A DNA stretch of 64,000 nt from NCBI RefSeq assembly GCF_000334215.1, contig NZ_AMQY01000023.1, positions 62,001 to 126,000 on the forward strand. Reading direction: 5' to 3'. Every line of letters begins with the position of its first letter. The first letter of the stretch is position 1. The position numbers were made by a program, and so were the translations under genes. The notes beneath the pieces were generated by a model that did no database searches, had not been told where the DNA came from, and saw only the letters and a list, made by a program, of their open reading frames with translations. Below are positions 15,945 to 21,206 of the stretch, one piece after another. This stretch comes from Vreelandella jeotgali Hwa. Lineage in GTDB: Bacteria > Pseudomonadota > Gammaproteobacteria > Pseudomonadales > Halomonadaceae.

Positions 15945-16952
15945 CTAAAAGCCGGCCTGTTCCAGATGGCCGGCCATGTCTTCCAGCACTTCAAGCCCTT
16001 GCACATCGGTTTCCAGCAGGGGCAGCCGCGGGCGTGGATAGCCGGCGAGCTCGCGATCAATGCGCGCCAGGTACTGCGCTTCCTGGTCACGGCGGCGGCT
16101 TAGGAACGCGCCGTCCGCACTGGACGGAATCACGCGGTTGACCAGCGTTGCCGCCACGGGGATCCCCGCCTCCTTCAGTGCCTCCACCGAGCGTACGGTT
16201 TCCAGAATCGGTAACCGCTCCGGCGTCATCACGAACAGGAAGTTGCTGATGTCCGCATCTTCGACCGCGCGGCGCGCCTGCATGAAGAGCCGGCGACGAT
16301 CCTTCAGCGTCTCCGCTATCGACCGGGCACGGTCGTCGAGGTCGCTTTCGCCTTCGTTTGCCGGGTCGGCAAAGGGCGAAGCGACGTCCTGACCGCCCTT
16401 GGGCGTCAGGTGCTTGAGCACCTTGTTGAGTTCCTCGGACTTGCGGCTGTGGGATAGCAGCCCGTCGGTCCAGGCAGCCATGGCTTCGGGCAGGCTCAAA
16501 AGGCGCAGCGTGTGGCCGGTCGGCGCGGTATCGAACACGATCAGGTCGTAGGCGTCGCCCTCTTCGGCCACCAGCCGCGCGATGCGCTCCAGCAGCGCGG
16601 CTTCCTGGGTGCCGGGGGACTGGCGCGACAGGCGCATCTGGCGTTCCATTTCGTCCATCATGCGCGGCACGGTGAAGCGTCGCATCTGGCTGGTTACGCG
16701 TTTGAGGTGGGCCTCGACCTCGGCATCGGGGTCAATCTCCATGGCATCGAGCCCCGGCGCCAGCCGGCGCGGCTCATCGCCCAGGGAGTGATCAAAAACA
16801 TCGCCCAGGCTGTGCGCCGGGTCGGTGGAAACCACCAGCACGTTGCGCCCGCGTTTACCCGCCAGCAGCGCCAGCGACGCGGCAACGCTGGTTTTACCTA
16901 CGCCGCCCTTGCCGCCTACCCAGAGCAGGCGGCGATCGAGAAGTTCCTTCAT
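15945..16952 (-). CDS. ArsA/GET3-family ATPase
   Basis: A 335-residue single-domain ArsA-type ATPase. The deviant P-loop GGKGGVGKTS (13-22) carries the intermonomer lysine; switch I is STDPAHS, and FDTAPTGHTLRLL is the conserved A-loop/switch II. Bacterial ArsA homologues power arsenite pumps or, as GET3/TRC40 relatives, handle tail-anchored proteins. No arsB or arsR is nearby, so an arsenic role is unlikely. It starts 28 bases after a 97-residue protein that ends in Cys-Cys. The two form an obvious transcription unit and probably work together. Confidence 0.92.
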   Translation of the reverse strand: MKELLDRRLLWVGGKGGVGKTSVAASLALLAGKRGRNVLVVSTDPAHSLGDVFDHSLGDEPRRLAPGLDAMEIDPDAEVEAHLKRVTSQMRRFTVPRMMDEMERQMRLSRQSPGTQEAALLERIARLVAEEGDAYDLIVFDTAPTGHTLRLLSLPEAMAAWTDGLLSHSRKSEELNKVLKHLTPKGGQDVASPFADPANEGESDLDDRARSIAETLKDRRRLFMQARRAVEDADISNFLFVMTPERLPILETVRSVEALKEAGIPVAATLVNRVIPSSADGAFLSRRRDQEAQYLARIDRELAGYPRPRLPLLETDVQGLEVLEDMAGHLEQAGF

Positions 16953-16980
16953 GGTTGGCCCTTTACGTTATCGAGCGCTG

Positions 16981-17274
16981 TCAGCAGCAGCGCATATCAT
17001 CCAGCGGCGAATGTTCCATGCCCATGCGGCGATGCCAGTCGTGGAAGCGTTCCAGCATCAGCGGCTGCAGCTCCAGGGTGTAATACCCCACCGGATTGGG
17101 CACGCCCATCAGCTCGGAAAACACCATGAGCATGAACAGATCGTCTTCGTCGCGCTTGGCGCGGGCAATAGCACCCCGATACGGAGCGCTGTAGAACTCT
17201 TCGGCATAGTAGCGAGCCCGGCTCAGCCAGGCCTTGAGCCTTTCCCCCCGGGAAAGGTCGGCGTCGTCGGACAT
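16981..17274 (-). CDS. Small protein ending in Cys-Cys, partner of the ArsA-like ATPase (cory-CC-star type)
   Basis: A 97-residue soluble protein: an aromatic/arginine helix SRARYYAEEFYSAPYRG (18-34), an acidic link DEDDLF, a hydrophobic helix MLMVFSELMGVPNPVGYY and a terminal RCC just before the stop codon. The shape (RYY motif near the start, invariant Cys-Cys-stop) matches what I recall of the NCBI 'cory-CC-star' family, which neighbours ArsA-type ATPases; I could not check this. The start at ATG 17274 has GGAGG five bases upstream; the longer open frame to 17337 is not supported. The terminal cysteines could bind metal, carry a disulfide or dock to the ATPase, which is inference. Confidence 0.75.
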   Translation of the reverse strand: MSDDADLSRGERLKAWLSRARYYAEEFYSAPYRGAIARAKRDEDDLFMLMVFSELMGVPNPVGYYTLELQPLMLERFHDWHRRMGMEHSPLDDMRCC

Positions 17275-17314
17275 GATGCCTCCCGAATGAATAACGTCCA
17301 TCCCTGCGCAGACT

Positions 17315-17496
17315 TTCAAGCAATGAGTCTCAAGCAATGAATCTCAAGCAATGAATCTCAAGCAAGAAATTCCAGGAAAAAAGCCTCAAGAGAAGAATTT
17401 CAAGAAAGGGGTCTTCAAGAAAGAGCCTCAGGAAATAGAGCCTTGAGAAAGGCGTCTCAGCAAAGGAACCTCAGAACAGACGCTTCAGTAAAAAGG
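17315..17496. repeat. Degenerate tandem array, about thirteen units of about 14 bp
   Basis: Successive units begin TCAAG or TCAG and read like TCAAGCAATGAATC. The first three are almost identical and later units drift (TCAAGAAAGAGCC, TCAGGAAATAGAGCC, TCAGCAAAGGAACC). Unit length varies from 13 to 15 bases. The array fills the spacer between the cstA terminator and the start of the Cys-Cys protein gene, so it covers the likely promoter of the Cys-Cys/ArsA unit. Confidence 0.85.
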
Positions 17497-17515
17497 GCGG
17501 CCCGAAGGCCGCCCC
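17490..17515 (-). terminator. Intrinsic terminator of cstA
   Basis: The stem GGGCGGCC/GGCCGCCC with a four-base loop lies 9 bases past the cstA stop and is followed on the minus strand by TTTTT. Confidence 0.9.
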
Positions 17516-17523
17516 CTGTGCGA

Positions 17524-19197
17524 TCAGGATGCCTGTTCGGCGCTTTCCTGACGCAGACGCTTGAGCGTGGCCACACACTCCATGGCCACCAGAATCGAGG
17601 CGATCAGCACCACGATATCCAGCCCCAGCAAAAAGTAGTTCTCTGCCATGTAGAAGCTTTTCAGCTGGGCAAACAGCGCCAGCACTGTCATGACCAGCAG
17701 GAAAACCAGCGGCGCGAGGGTATACACGGTCGGACGCCCCAGACGACGCAGCATGACCGTGACCACCAGCAGCGTGAGTCCCGCCAGCAGCTGGTTGGTG
17801 GTGCCAAACAGCGGCCAGATGATCAGACCGCCCGAGCCGTCGGCGCCGGCACCGAAGGCCAGCACCAGGCAGCTGCCAACCGCCAGCAGCGTGGCTACCG
17901 CGGGCTTTTTCATCCACTGCTGGTTATAGATTTCGCCCCATTCCTGAAAGATATAGCGCTGCAGACGCAGGCCGGTATCCATGGTGGTGCCGGCAAACAG
18001 CGCCGCCATCACGGTCAGCAGCGTTGAAGCAGTGGCTTCGGGCAGGCCGATGCCGTTGCTGATGATGTAGGCACCGCCTTCGACAAACGCATTGACGCCG
18101 CCCTTGCCGAAGGCGTCGTACATCGCGCTCCACTCGCCGTAGGTAGCAAAGCCGGCGGTGGCGGCGAGAATCGCACCCAGCGCCAGCATGCCTTCACCGA
18201 CCGCGCCAAAGTAGCCGACGAAGCGTACGTCCGACTCCTTGTTAAGCTGCTTGGAGGTGGTGCCGCCGGCGACCAGGCCGTGGAAGCCCGAAATCGCCCC
18301 GCAGGCAATGGTCACGAACAGCAACGGCAGCATCGACGGCGTTCCCTCGGGCACATCGGTATTGACCATGGGCGCTACCAGCGAGGGATTGAACACTACC
18401 AGAGCGCCGTAAAGGATGATCAGCCCGATAAACAGCTGCAGGCCGTTGATGTAGTCGCGCGGCTGCAACAGCATCCATACCGGCAGCAGCGACGCAATCG
18501 CGGCGTAGCCGAACAGGATCAGAATCCACACGGCGTTGCCGGACAGCGCGCCCACCTGCTCGGGCATCTGCACCGGCACCGAGGGCCCGATGCCGATCAG
18601 CGCGTACAGCGCTACCACGCCGATAATCGACACCATGCCCAGACTCAGAATGCGGCGGTAGATCAGCTGGCCGATGATCAGCGCCACGGCAATGGCGCCC
18701 CAGACCGGCACGACGGCGCTGGAAAAATCCATCATCAGGCCGGCGATCACCACGGCAAAGACCGCGTTGACCATGAGCAGCAGGAGGAAAATCACGATCA
18801 TGAACACGCTGCGAGCGCGCTTGCCCACAACGTCGCCGGTCAGGGCACCTACCGAGCGCGCCTTGTTGCGCACGCTGGCCCAGACCGCGCCACTATCGTG
18901 CACGCCGGCAAACAGAACGGTGCCGATAACGACCCAGAGGGCAGCCGGCAGCCAGCCCCAGATCACCGCGATTGCCGGCCCCACAATGGGCGCGGCGCCG
19001 GCCACGGAGGTAAAGTGGTGGCCCCAAAGCACATAGCGGTTGGTAGGCACAAAATCGATGCCGTCCTCAAACTCGTGAGCCGGCGTCTTGAAATCCGGAT
19101 CCAGCCGAAAAATCTTCTCGGCAATAAACTTCGAGTACACCAGGTACCCGAGCGCCATGAAGCCAAGCCCCAGCGCCAATAGAATGACTGCACTCAT
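17524..19197 (-). CDS. cstA: Carbon starvation protein CstA family transporter
   Basis: A 557-residue multi-spanning membrane protein (about 15 hydrophobic segments) of the CstA family, which takes up pyruvate or peptides. Typical blocks are GHHFTSVAGAAPIVGPAIAV near the start, GVHDSGAVWASVRNKARSVG, and the mid-protein FHGLVAGGTTSKQLNKESD. It is shorter than E. coli CstA (about 700) and of the shorter subfamily. GGGACAG precedes the ATG at 19197. The small ybdD-like gene that often follows cstA is absent. Confidence 0.93.
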   Translation of the reverse strand: MSAVILLALGLGFMALGYLVYSKFIAEKIFRLDPDFKTPAHEFEDGIDFVPTNRYVLWGHHFTSVAGAAPIVGPAIAVIWGWLPAALWVVIGTVLFAGVHDSGAVWASVRNKARSVGALTGDVVGKRARSVFMIVIFLLLLMVNAVFAVVIAGLMMDFSSAVVPVWGAIAVALIIGQLIYRRILSLGMVSIIGVVALYALIGIGPSVPVQMPEQVGALSGNAVWILILFGYAAIASLLPVWMLLQPRDYINGLQLFIGLIILYGALVVFNPSLVAPMVNTDVPEGTPSMLPLLFVTIACGAISGFHGLVAGGTTSKQLNKESDVRFVGYFGAVGEGMLALGAILAATAGFATYGEWSAMYDAFGKGGVNAFVEGGAYIISNGIGLPEATASTLLTVMAALFAGTTMDTGLRLQRYIFQEWGEIYNQQWMKKPAVATLLAVGSCLVLAFGAGADGSGGLIIWPLFGTTNQLLAGLTLLVVTVMLRRLGRPTVYTLAPLVFLLVMTVLALFAQLKSFYMAENYFLLGLDIVVLIASILVAMECVATLKRLRQESAEQAS

Positions 19198-19881: not shown

Positions 19882-20156
19882 CACGCTTGAATCCTGAAAA
19901 AGAAGGTCCCGAAAAAAAGTCCCGAGGAAAGGTCACGAAAAAGGGGCCGAGTGTTCGAACCGCTGCGCGCACTGCCCCGGCATGGCGTTTTGACGTGCGT
20001 CAAGAAAGACAGAGTTTGCTACCCCTGACGGCTGGCAAACTACCTCCCCCGGGTTACCTTTATGGTTAAGCAGACATTAAAACAACACCGAGCTGCCACT
20101 CACTATTCCATCGTGGCGTTGCGGCGCTGTCGATGCTTTCACCAGGGGATCTCATC

Positions 20157-21206
<1,050 letters not shown>

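Follow-up and report, generated by a model that had tools for sequence, protein, structure and literature searches.

In E. coli two CstA-family carriers are encoded next to a small protein of the YbdD/YjiX family (PF04328). The gene orders are cstA-ybdD and btsT-yjiX-yjiA, YbdD and YjiX both end in RCC, and BtsT carries the annotation pyruvate:H+ symporter. No arsA gene adjoins the cstA or the btsT locus, and we know of no ArsA elsewhere in E. coli K-12. Compared with the wild type, pyruvate uptake was found to fall to 13% without cstA and to 20% without ybdD (Hwang et al. 2018, PMC5847655). With both genes deleted the uptake was 25%, which is no significant further effect; the authors did not demonstrate direct contact between CstA and YbdD and allow for indirect effects (PMC5847655). 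Adjacent cstA and ybdD-like genes have been reported to be induced jointly (PMC13356812). YjiA, a member of COG0523, has a preference for Zn(II) and an undefined function (PMC7895991, PMC2770081). The DUF466 (YbdD/YjiX) family has a Cys-Sec end in Campylobacterales, from which its discoverers inferred redox chemistry (PMC4607533); the Cys-Sec DUF466 protein is listed as KCU-star (PMC9312934, PMC13188914).

A second described system is a gene trio. Castillo and Saier (2010, PMC2963123) found 26 associations of CstA with ArsA, 24 of them together with a further protein, CstX, which has one transmembrane segment and about 90 aa in the cluster for which a size is given. The ArsA of this trio is a single-domain protein of about 330 aa, ars genes are absent, and the arsenic cysteines are not conserved; in the arsenical pump ArsA the cysteines 113, 172 and 422 are important for activity (PMC2963123). 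The trees of the trio members coevolve, and it was proposed that ArsA energises CstA through CstX (PMC2963123). An earlier note on the DNA studied here had stated that no pathway is assigned to pairs of a small protein and an ArsA-type ATPase; this statement is overtaken by the transport role with CstA put forward in 2010. The main text of PMC2963123 contains no mention of ybdD, yjiX or a GTPase, and no mention of a Cys-Cys end of CstX was noticed in the accessible part of the paper.

The locus lies on the minus strand of the window, by which we mean the whole stretch of 64,000 nucleotides that was analysed. The first gene (17524..19197) codes for a CstA-family transporter of 557 aa (PF02554, 458.6 bits, cut-off 27). 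The second gene (16981..17274) follows directly on the same strand and codes for a protein of 97 aa whose translation ends in Cys-Cys (codons at 16984..16989) and the stop. This protein is a member of the NCBIfam family NF041419 "cory-CC-star protein" (135.3 bits, cut-off 80). After a further 28 bp, again on the same strand, the gene for the ArsA/GET3-type ATPase is found (15945..16952, 335 aa). The earlier note had correctly placed a 97-residue protein ending in Cys-Cys upstream of the ATPase, and the search for the small family and its neighbourhoods which it suggested led to NF041419 and to the neighbourhood cstA-cory-arsA. Its two-part system has to be extended, since the unit comprises three genes and the CstA-family transporter upstream had been missed. 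Its statement that no arsenic genes are near was upheld: none was present among the neighbours compared with the family libraries, from about 12.0 to 21.2 kb of the window. The genome has an arsR-arsH-arsB cluster on another contig (C10, L146:2998-5438); ArsA was absent among the open frames neighbouring this cluster, and Acr3 had no match in the window genome. At 20133-21206 the window also encodes a MauG/MbnH-like di-heme enzyme, with matches to TIGR04039 and TIGR03791 below their cut-offs.

The ATPase matched TIGR00345 with 253.4 bits (cut-off 135), and PF02374 covers residues 8-330 of its 335 residues. The P-loop GGKGGVGKT with the extra (intermonomer) lysine (residues 13-21; 16890..16916, minus strand) was invariant across 79 aligned ArsA rows, the alignment leaving out 2 of 80 ArsA rows as short. 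The earlier description as a single-domain ArsA ATPase with an intact intermonomer P-loop was therefore right. The ATPase of the window is entirely free of cysteine, as are 37 of the 79 aligned rows. Its structure was predicted with a mean pLDDT of 79, residues 171-205 being poorly modelled. The best fold match of this model was GET3/TRC40 (3zq6, Z 30.2, 279 residues, rmsd 2.4), ArsA structures matched slightly less well (Z about 26), and the sequence search agreed with the structure search on these two families. The model fits a protein that we take to be a dimeric SIMIBI ATPase, and such a structure would be compatible with a pump, a chaperone and a loader alike. A Met-rich stretch (residues 85-112) was considered as a client groove and dropped as too weak as evidence; the rows have 1 to 5 Met in this stretch, with 4 in 42/79 and 2 in 20/79.

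For the small protein no match was found in Pfam up to E 0.1, PF04328 included. Its C-terminus in the window is RCC followed by the stop. The Cys-Cys end was present in 80 of 80 cory loci, which are the best 80 of 586 confirmed candidates, and neither Cys-Sec nor another tail variant occurred among them. Both terminal cysteines were invariant in two alignments with 12 rows (A1) and 41 rows (A3). The conserved core as seen in the 12 rows of alignment A1 is YxAPYR...RDEDDLFMLLVFSE..GVPNP..YTLELQPLLLERFHDWHxRMGMEHSPLDxxRCC. The aromatic RYY motif emphasized in the earlier note turned out not to be conserved, relatives reading RFF, RYL and others. The predicted structure (mean pLDDT 78, pTM 0.55) comprises helices at 9-56 (long), 61-64 (short) and 69-84, and a loose tail bearing the two cysteines. 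Against the PDB the predicted fold gave 28 matches, none reaching E 0.001, and the sequence gave no relative at E 1. The CC tail, exposed in the model, would fit an interaction or loading site. As the ATPase is free of cysteine, any thiol or thiol-metal chemistry would sit on this tail. A metal or thiol client of the small protein, as suggested in the earlier note, is possible.

How strictly the three genes are linked was assessed in two sets of loci. In the 58 genomes comprising the window genome and its relatives together with a phylum sample of 397 genomes, the order cstA-cory-arsA on one strand was found in 22 of 22 loci. The second set, the best 80 of 586 confirmed candidates, is dominated by close relatives and shows this order in 79 of 80 loci. 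The sets overlap, at least four loci (L072, L093, L109 and L117) being common to both. The lone exception among the best 80 of 586 is L132 (2794-4133), where cory and arsA have no adjoining CstA gene. An ArsA-type ATPase is encoded downstream of cory in all 80 of these best 80 loci, so that the fixed pairing assumed in the earlier note stood the co-occurrence check. All loci of both sets were collected via the small protein and are thus uninformative on CstA without cory. ArsA is split over two frames in L106 and L109, and CstA in L108 and L109. Behind arsA another CstA gene is present in L094 and in L135, so cory and the ATPase gene sit between two transporter genes.

Within the 58 genomes cory is present in 13, and these are exactly the 13 whose CstA is of the strong type, with 370-381 bits in 12 of them and a match in pieces in G032. 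A single-domain ArsA adjoins cory in each of them, in G032 again in pieces. Beyond the cory loci, G011, which lacks cory, also has an ArsA match over the cut-off (in an open frame of 579 aa), and so does a second contig of G032. In the phylum sample 10 of 397 genomes contain cory, the window genome counted.

The window differs from its closest relative in the spacer between cstA and cory. This spacer comprises 249 bp (17275-17523), and in the window the cory core lies at a distance of 300 from the stop of cstA, compared with a median of 63 (19-204) in 79 loci. A terminator-like hairpin with a UUCG loop leading into a T tail is situated just 3' of cstA (17492..17517, minus strand; RNA fold -22 kcal/mol, z -4.09); it is absent from the output of the consensus scan. 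In addition, the spacer contains 3.6 copies of a 14-bp tandem repeat (17316-17365). As the spacer is long, carries this hairpin and is short in the closest relative (L061), the cory-arsA pair of the window strain may be transcribed separately from cstA.

We compared these loci with those of the YbdD/YjiX family. PF04328 was found in 37 of 199 sampled genomes. CstA is encoded upstream in 28 of the 30 PF04328 loci; the other two are L033, which is cut by the contig start, and L060, with no CstA within 1.5 kb. A YjiA-type GTPase gene follows downstream in 8 of 30 loci, perhaps an undercount since contig ends cut some of them. The CC end is present in 29 of 30, while L051 ends in CPC. Two apparent CstA-YbdD fusions (L042 and L045) were discarded because the CstA match lies in another open frame of the same locus. 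YbdD and YjiX match the KCU-star model NF033934 below its cut-off, and YbdD compared with the PDB by sequence gave chance-level rows (best E 0.37).

The two small families were not found together. Among 148 sampled genomes of one bacterial family (that of G297), 23 contain cory, 79 contain PF04328, none contains both and 46 contain neither; for these counts the two profile searches were taken as the same draw, as genome number and handles are the same, although the genomes lacking a match are listed in part only. Fisher's test gives P 2e-9, a value that ignores shared ancestry. Counted by genus, cory occurs in 4 and PF04328 in 14 of 19 genera with an overlap of 0 (P 0.0013). PF04328 was also absent from 30 genomes hand-picked from non-Halomonas cory loci, for which 30 of the 80 loci were used. 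The 37 PF04328 genomes (of 199) and the 9 other cory genomes (of 397) do not overlap either, few overlaps being expected. PF04328 occurs in none of the 58 genomes of the window genome and its relatives, so this group gives no contrast.

The CstA proteins divide in the same manner. A quick tree of 55 rows separated cory-linked (21), YbdD-linked (28) and partnerless (6) CstA proteins with the minimum of 2 changes, and the support values were 99 (YbdD group), 100 (partnerless group) and 69 (cory group). The rows were hand-picked, with 21 cory-linked ones out of 102 cory loci and 6 partnerless ones; the YbdD-linked rows come from 26 of the 30 PF04328 loci and two E. coli genes, L033 and L060 (no CstA) as well as L037 and L050 being left out. 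The partnerless proteins represent a second CstA subtype of about 490 aa (107-114 bits) from genus relatives and one order member (L141-L145). None of the 6 genes of this subtype, in five regions, has a CC-ending neighbour as judged from the ends of greedily chosen open frames, a check by which a small gene can be missed, and ArsA over the cut-off is absent from the five regions. It follows that CstA proteins as a whole need no such neighbour. We set aside 35 CstA columns that the cory-linked and the YbdD-linked class conserve and the partnerless class lacks, because divergence of the whole subfamily explains it equally well. By sequence, the window CstA has no relative in the PDB at E 0.01.

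Four tests for homology of the two small families gave no support. In two comparisons hhalign gave 1.4% and 1.2%, the latter alignment spanning GVPN to the shared RCC, and over all hhalign runs the probability lay within 1.2-1.9%. When YbdD was column-shuffled, 2 of 60 versions reached the observed score with cory. With the CC masked, the 76 listed cory ORFs, ranked by the YbdD profile, had a median of 2281 of 12796; for the 26 listed YbdD ORFs, ranked by the cory profile, it was 474 of 1082. The only hint of homology is the shared G-x-P-[DN] stretch together with the RCC end. Therefore, our claim is that cory works like YbdD/YjiX, not that it is a member of that family. The pattern looks like replacement in one slot.

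At the level of sequence comparison, the trio with its fixed order, the invariant Cys-Cys, the intact ATPase motifs and the lack of overlap with YbdD/YjiX are established for the tested samples. We give an even chance to a three-part uptake system of the CstA family in which an NTPase assembles or services a subunit with a CC tail. The CstA protein would be the carrier in the membrane. Pyruvate is imported by the related E. coli proteins CstA and BtsT, and pyruvate or a similar acid is the presumable cargo here. The cory-CC-star protein would be a small accessory subunit in the YbdD/YjiX slot, presumably required for transport. That it is accessory to CstA we regard as highly probable, and that it is a functional stand-in for YbdD/YjiX as fairly probable. 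The ArsA-type ATPase would spend ATP to assemble, load or reset cory on CstA, most likely via the exposed Cys-Cys tail, comparable to the GTPase YjiA beside YjiX. It would thereby act on cory rather than directly power CstA; to the role of assembly or servicing factor we assign slightly less than an even chance. YjiA is encoded at only 8 of 30 YbdD/YjiX loci, so not every CC protein has an NTPase next to it; this weakens the case for a general loader. The terminator-like hairpin between cstA and cory in the window, the locus L132 with cory-arsA and no CstA, and the support of only 69 for the cory-linked CstA group also count against this proposal.

A wider reading, which we consider doubtful, is that CstA importers use interchangeable "CC-star" subunits (cory-CC-star, YbdD/YjiX, KCU-star), some of them switched on by a dedicated NTPase that sets metal or redox state on the last two residues. 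Such subunits would have arisen more than once or diverged past recognition. If this is true, the ArsA-type ATPase and the COG0523 GTPase would be two solutions to one job, and a secondary transporter would be matured by an NTPase. In the three-part uptake system proposed above, an ATPase pair once thought to lack a pathway would move into carbon-acid uptake. One testable idea would join two puzzles, the role of the CC (in some cases Cys-Sec) tail of YbdD/YjiX and the client of the Zn-preferring GTPase YjiA. The exclusion pattern in one bacterial family moreover predicts which genes should replace each other.

We considered several alternatives to assembly or servicing of cory by the ATPase. 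The ArsA homologue could directly energise CstA with the small protein as coupling link, which would make the trio an ATP-driven importer (Castillo and Saier 2010, PMC2963123). The same trio and the coevolving trees reported there as well as the strict linkage found here speak for this mechanism, but arsA is lacking next to cstA and btsT in E. coli, BtsT bears the annotation of a pyruvate:H+ symporter, and the fold comes closest to the targeting ATPases GET3/TRC40, the pump ArsA being slightly behind. We regard direct energisation as unlikely. Similarly unlikely, by a shade more, is metal delivery, in which the two terminal cysteines would receive a metal ion, possibly zinc, with the help of the NTPase, so that the accessory subunit is metallated. 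The invariant CC in the best 80 of 586 candidates and the Zn(II) preference of the parallel NTPase YjiA, a COG0523 protein (PMC7895991, PMC2770081), agree with this idea; however, the window ArsA and 37 of 79 rows are cysteine-free, so ArsA itself is no thiol metal carrier.

Third, the terminal cysteines could form and open a disulfide that gates the transporter, the ATPase resetting or reading this state. The Cys-Sec end of DUF466 in Campylobacterales, taken as a sign of redox chemistry (PMC4607533), points in this direction, whereas the best 80 of 586 cory loci lack Cys-Sec or any other tail variant and the conserved trio includes no redox gene; such a switch is rather improbable. Still less probable is a GET3-like targeting factor, with CstA or the small protein as the client brought to the membrane. 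TRC40/GET3 is the best structural match (Z 30.2), but the ATPase model is poor over residues 171-205, and in the cory model the long helix spans 9-56 while the C-terminus is a loose tail rather than an anchor. Eukaryotic GET3 has a zinc-binding CxxC at its dimer interface, for which the window ATPase has no cysteine. Finally, arsenic resistance with the ATPase working in trans on the ArsB encoded on the other contig would agree with membership in the ArsA family and with the lack of a second TIGR00345 protein over the cut-off among the matches listed for the window genome, yet it is very improbable, as ArsB belongs to its own arsR-arsH-arsB cluster, Acr3 has no match, and the cysteine-free ATPase is encoded with CstA and not with ars genes.

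The trio itself is already described (2010), and cory-CC-star is already a named family. Like the cstA-cstX-arsA trio (PMC2963123), the window has a CstA gene and a single-domain ArsA, here of 335 aa, without the arsenic cysteines. CstX has about 90 aa and one transmembrane segment; the 97 aa of the cory protein fit this size, and its model shows a helix at 9-56. From size and position we infer that CstX is cory-CC-star. In the literature searched, from which most subscription papers were outside, neither an experiment on the cory-CC-star protein or its ArsA type nor a link of cory-CC-star or CstX to YbdD/YjiX was found. The arsenical pump ArsA has two ATPase domains in about 580 aa and cysteines at 113, 172 and 422 (PMC2963123), whereas the window ATPase is a cysteine-free protein of one domain. 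With GET3/TRC40, which binds tail-anchored clients, the latter shares the fold, the P-loop with the extra lysine and the single domain, but it differs in the lack of cysteine and in its gene context with CstA. The KCU-star/DUF466 proteins (NF033934, PF04328) resemble cory in having a C-terminal residue pair before the stop; KCU-star ends in Cys-Sec, a form absent from cory in the best 80 of 586 candidates. YbdD/YjiX and the window cory have in common the gene position after CstA and the C-terminal CC, without a supported alignment between them, and the CstA proteins linked to each fall into separate groups on the quick tree. In E. coli as in the window, the gene for a CstA-family carrier is followed by that for a small RCC-ending protein, and after yjiX as after cory a P-loop NTPase gene comes next. 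This NTPase is the COG0523 GTPase YjiA in E. coli and of the ArsA type in the window. The new element, a parallel that we did not find in print and that is open to testing, is that the trio appears to take the place of YbdD/YjiX, its NTPase being of another kind.
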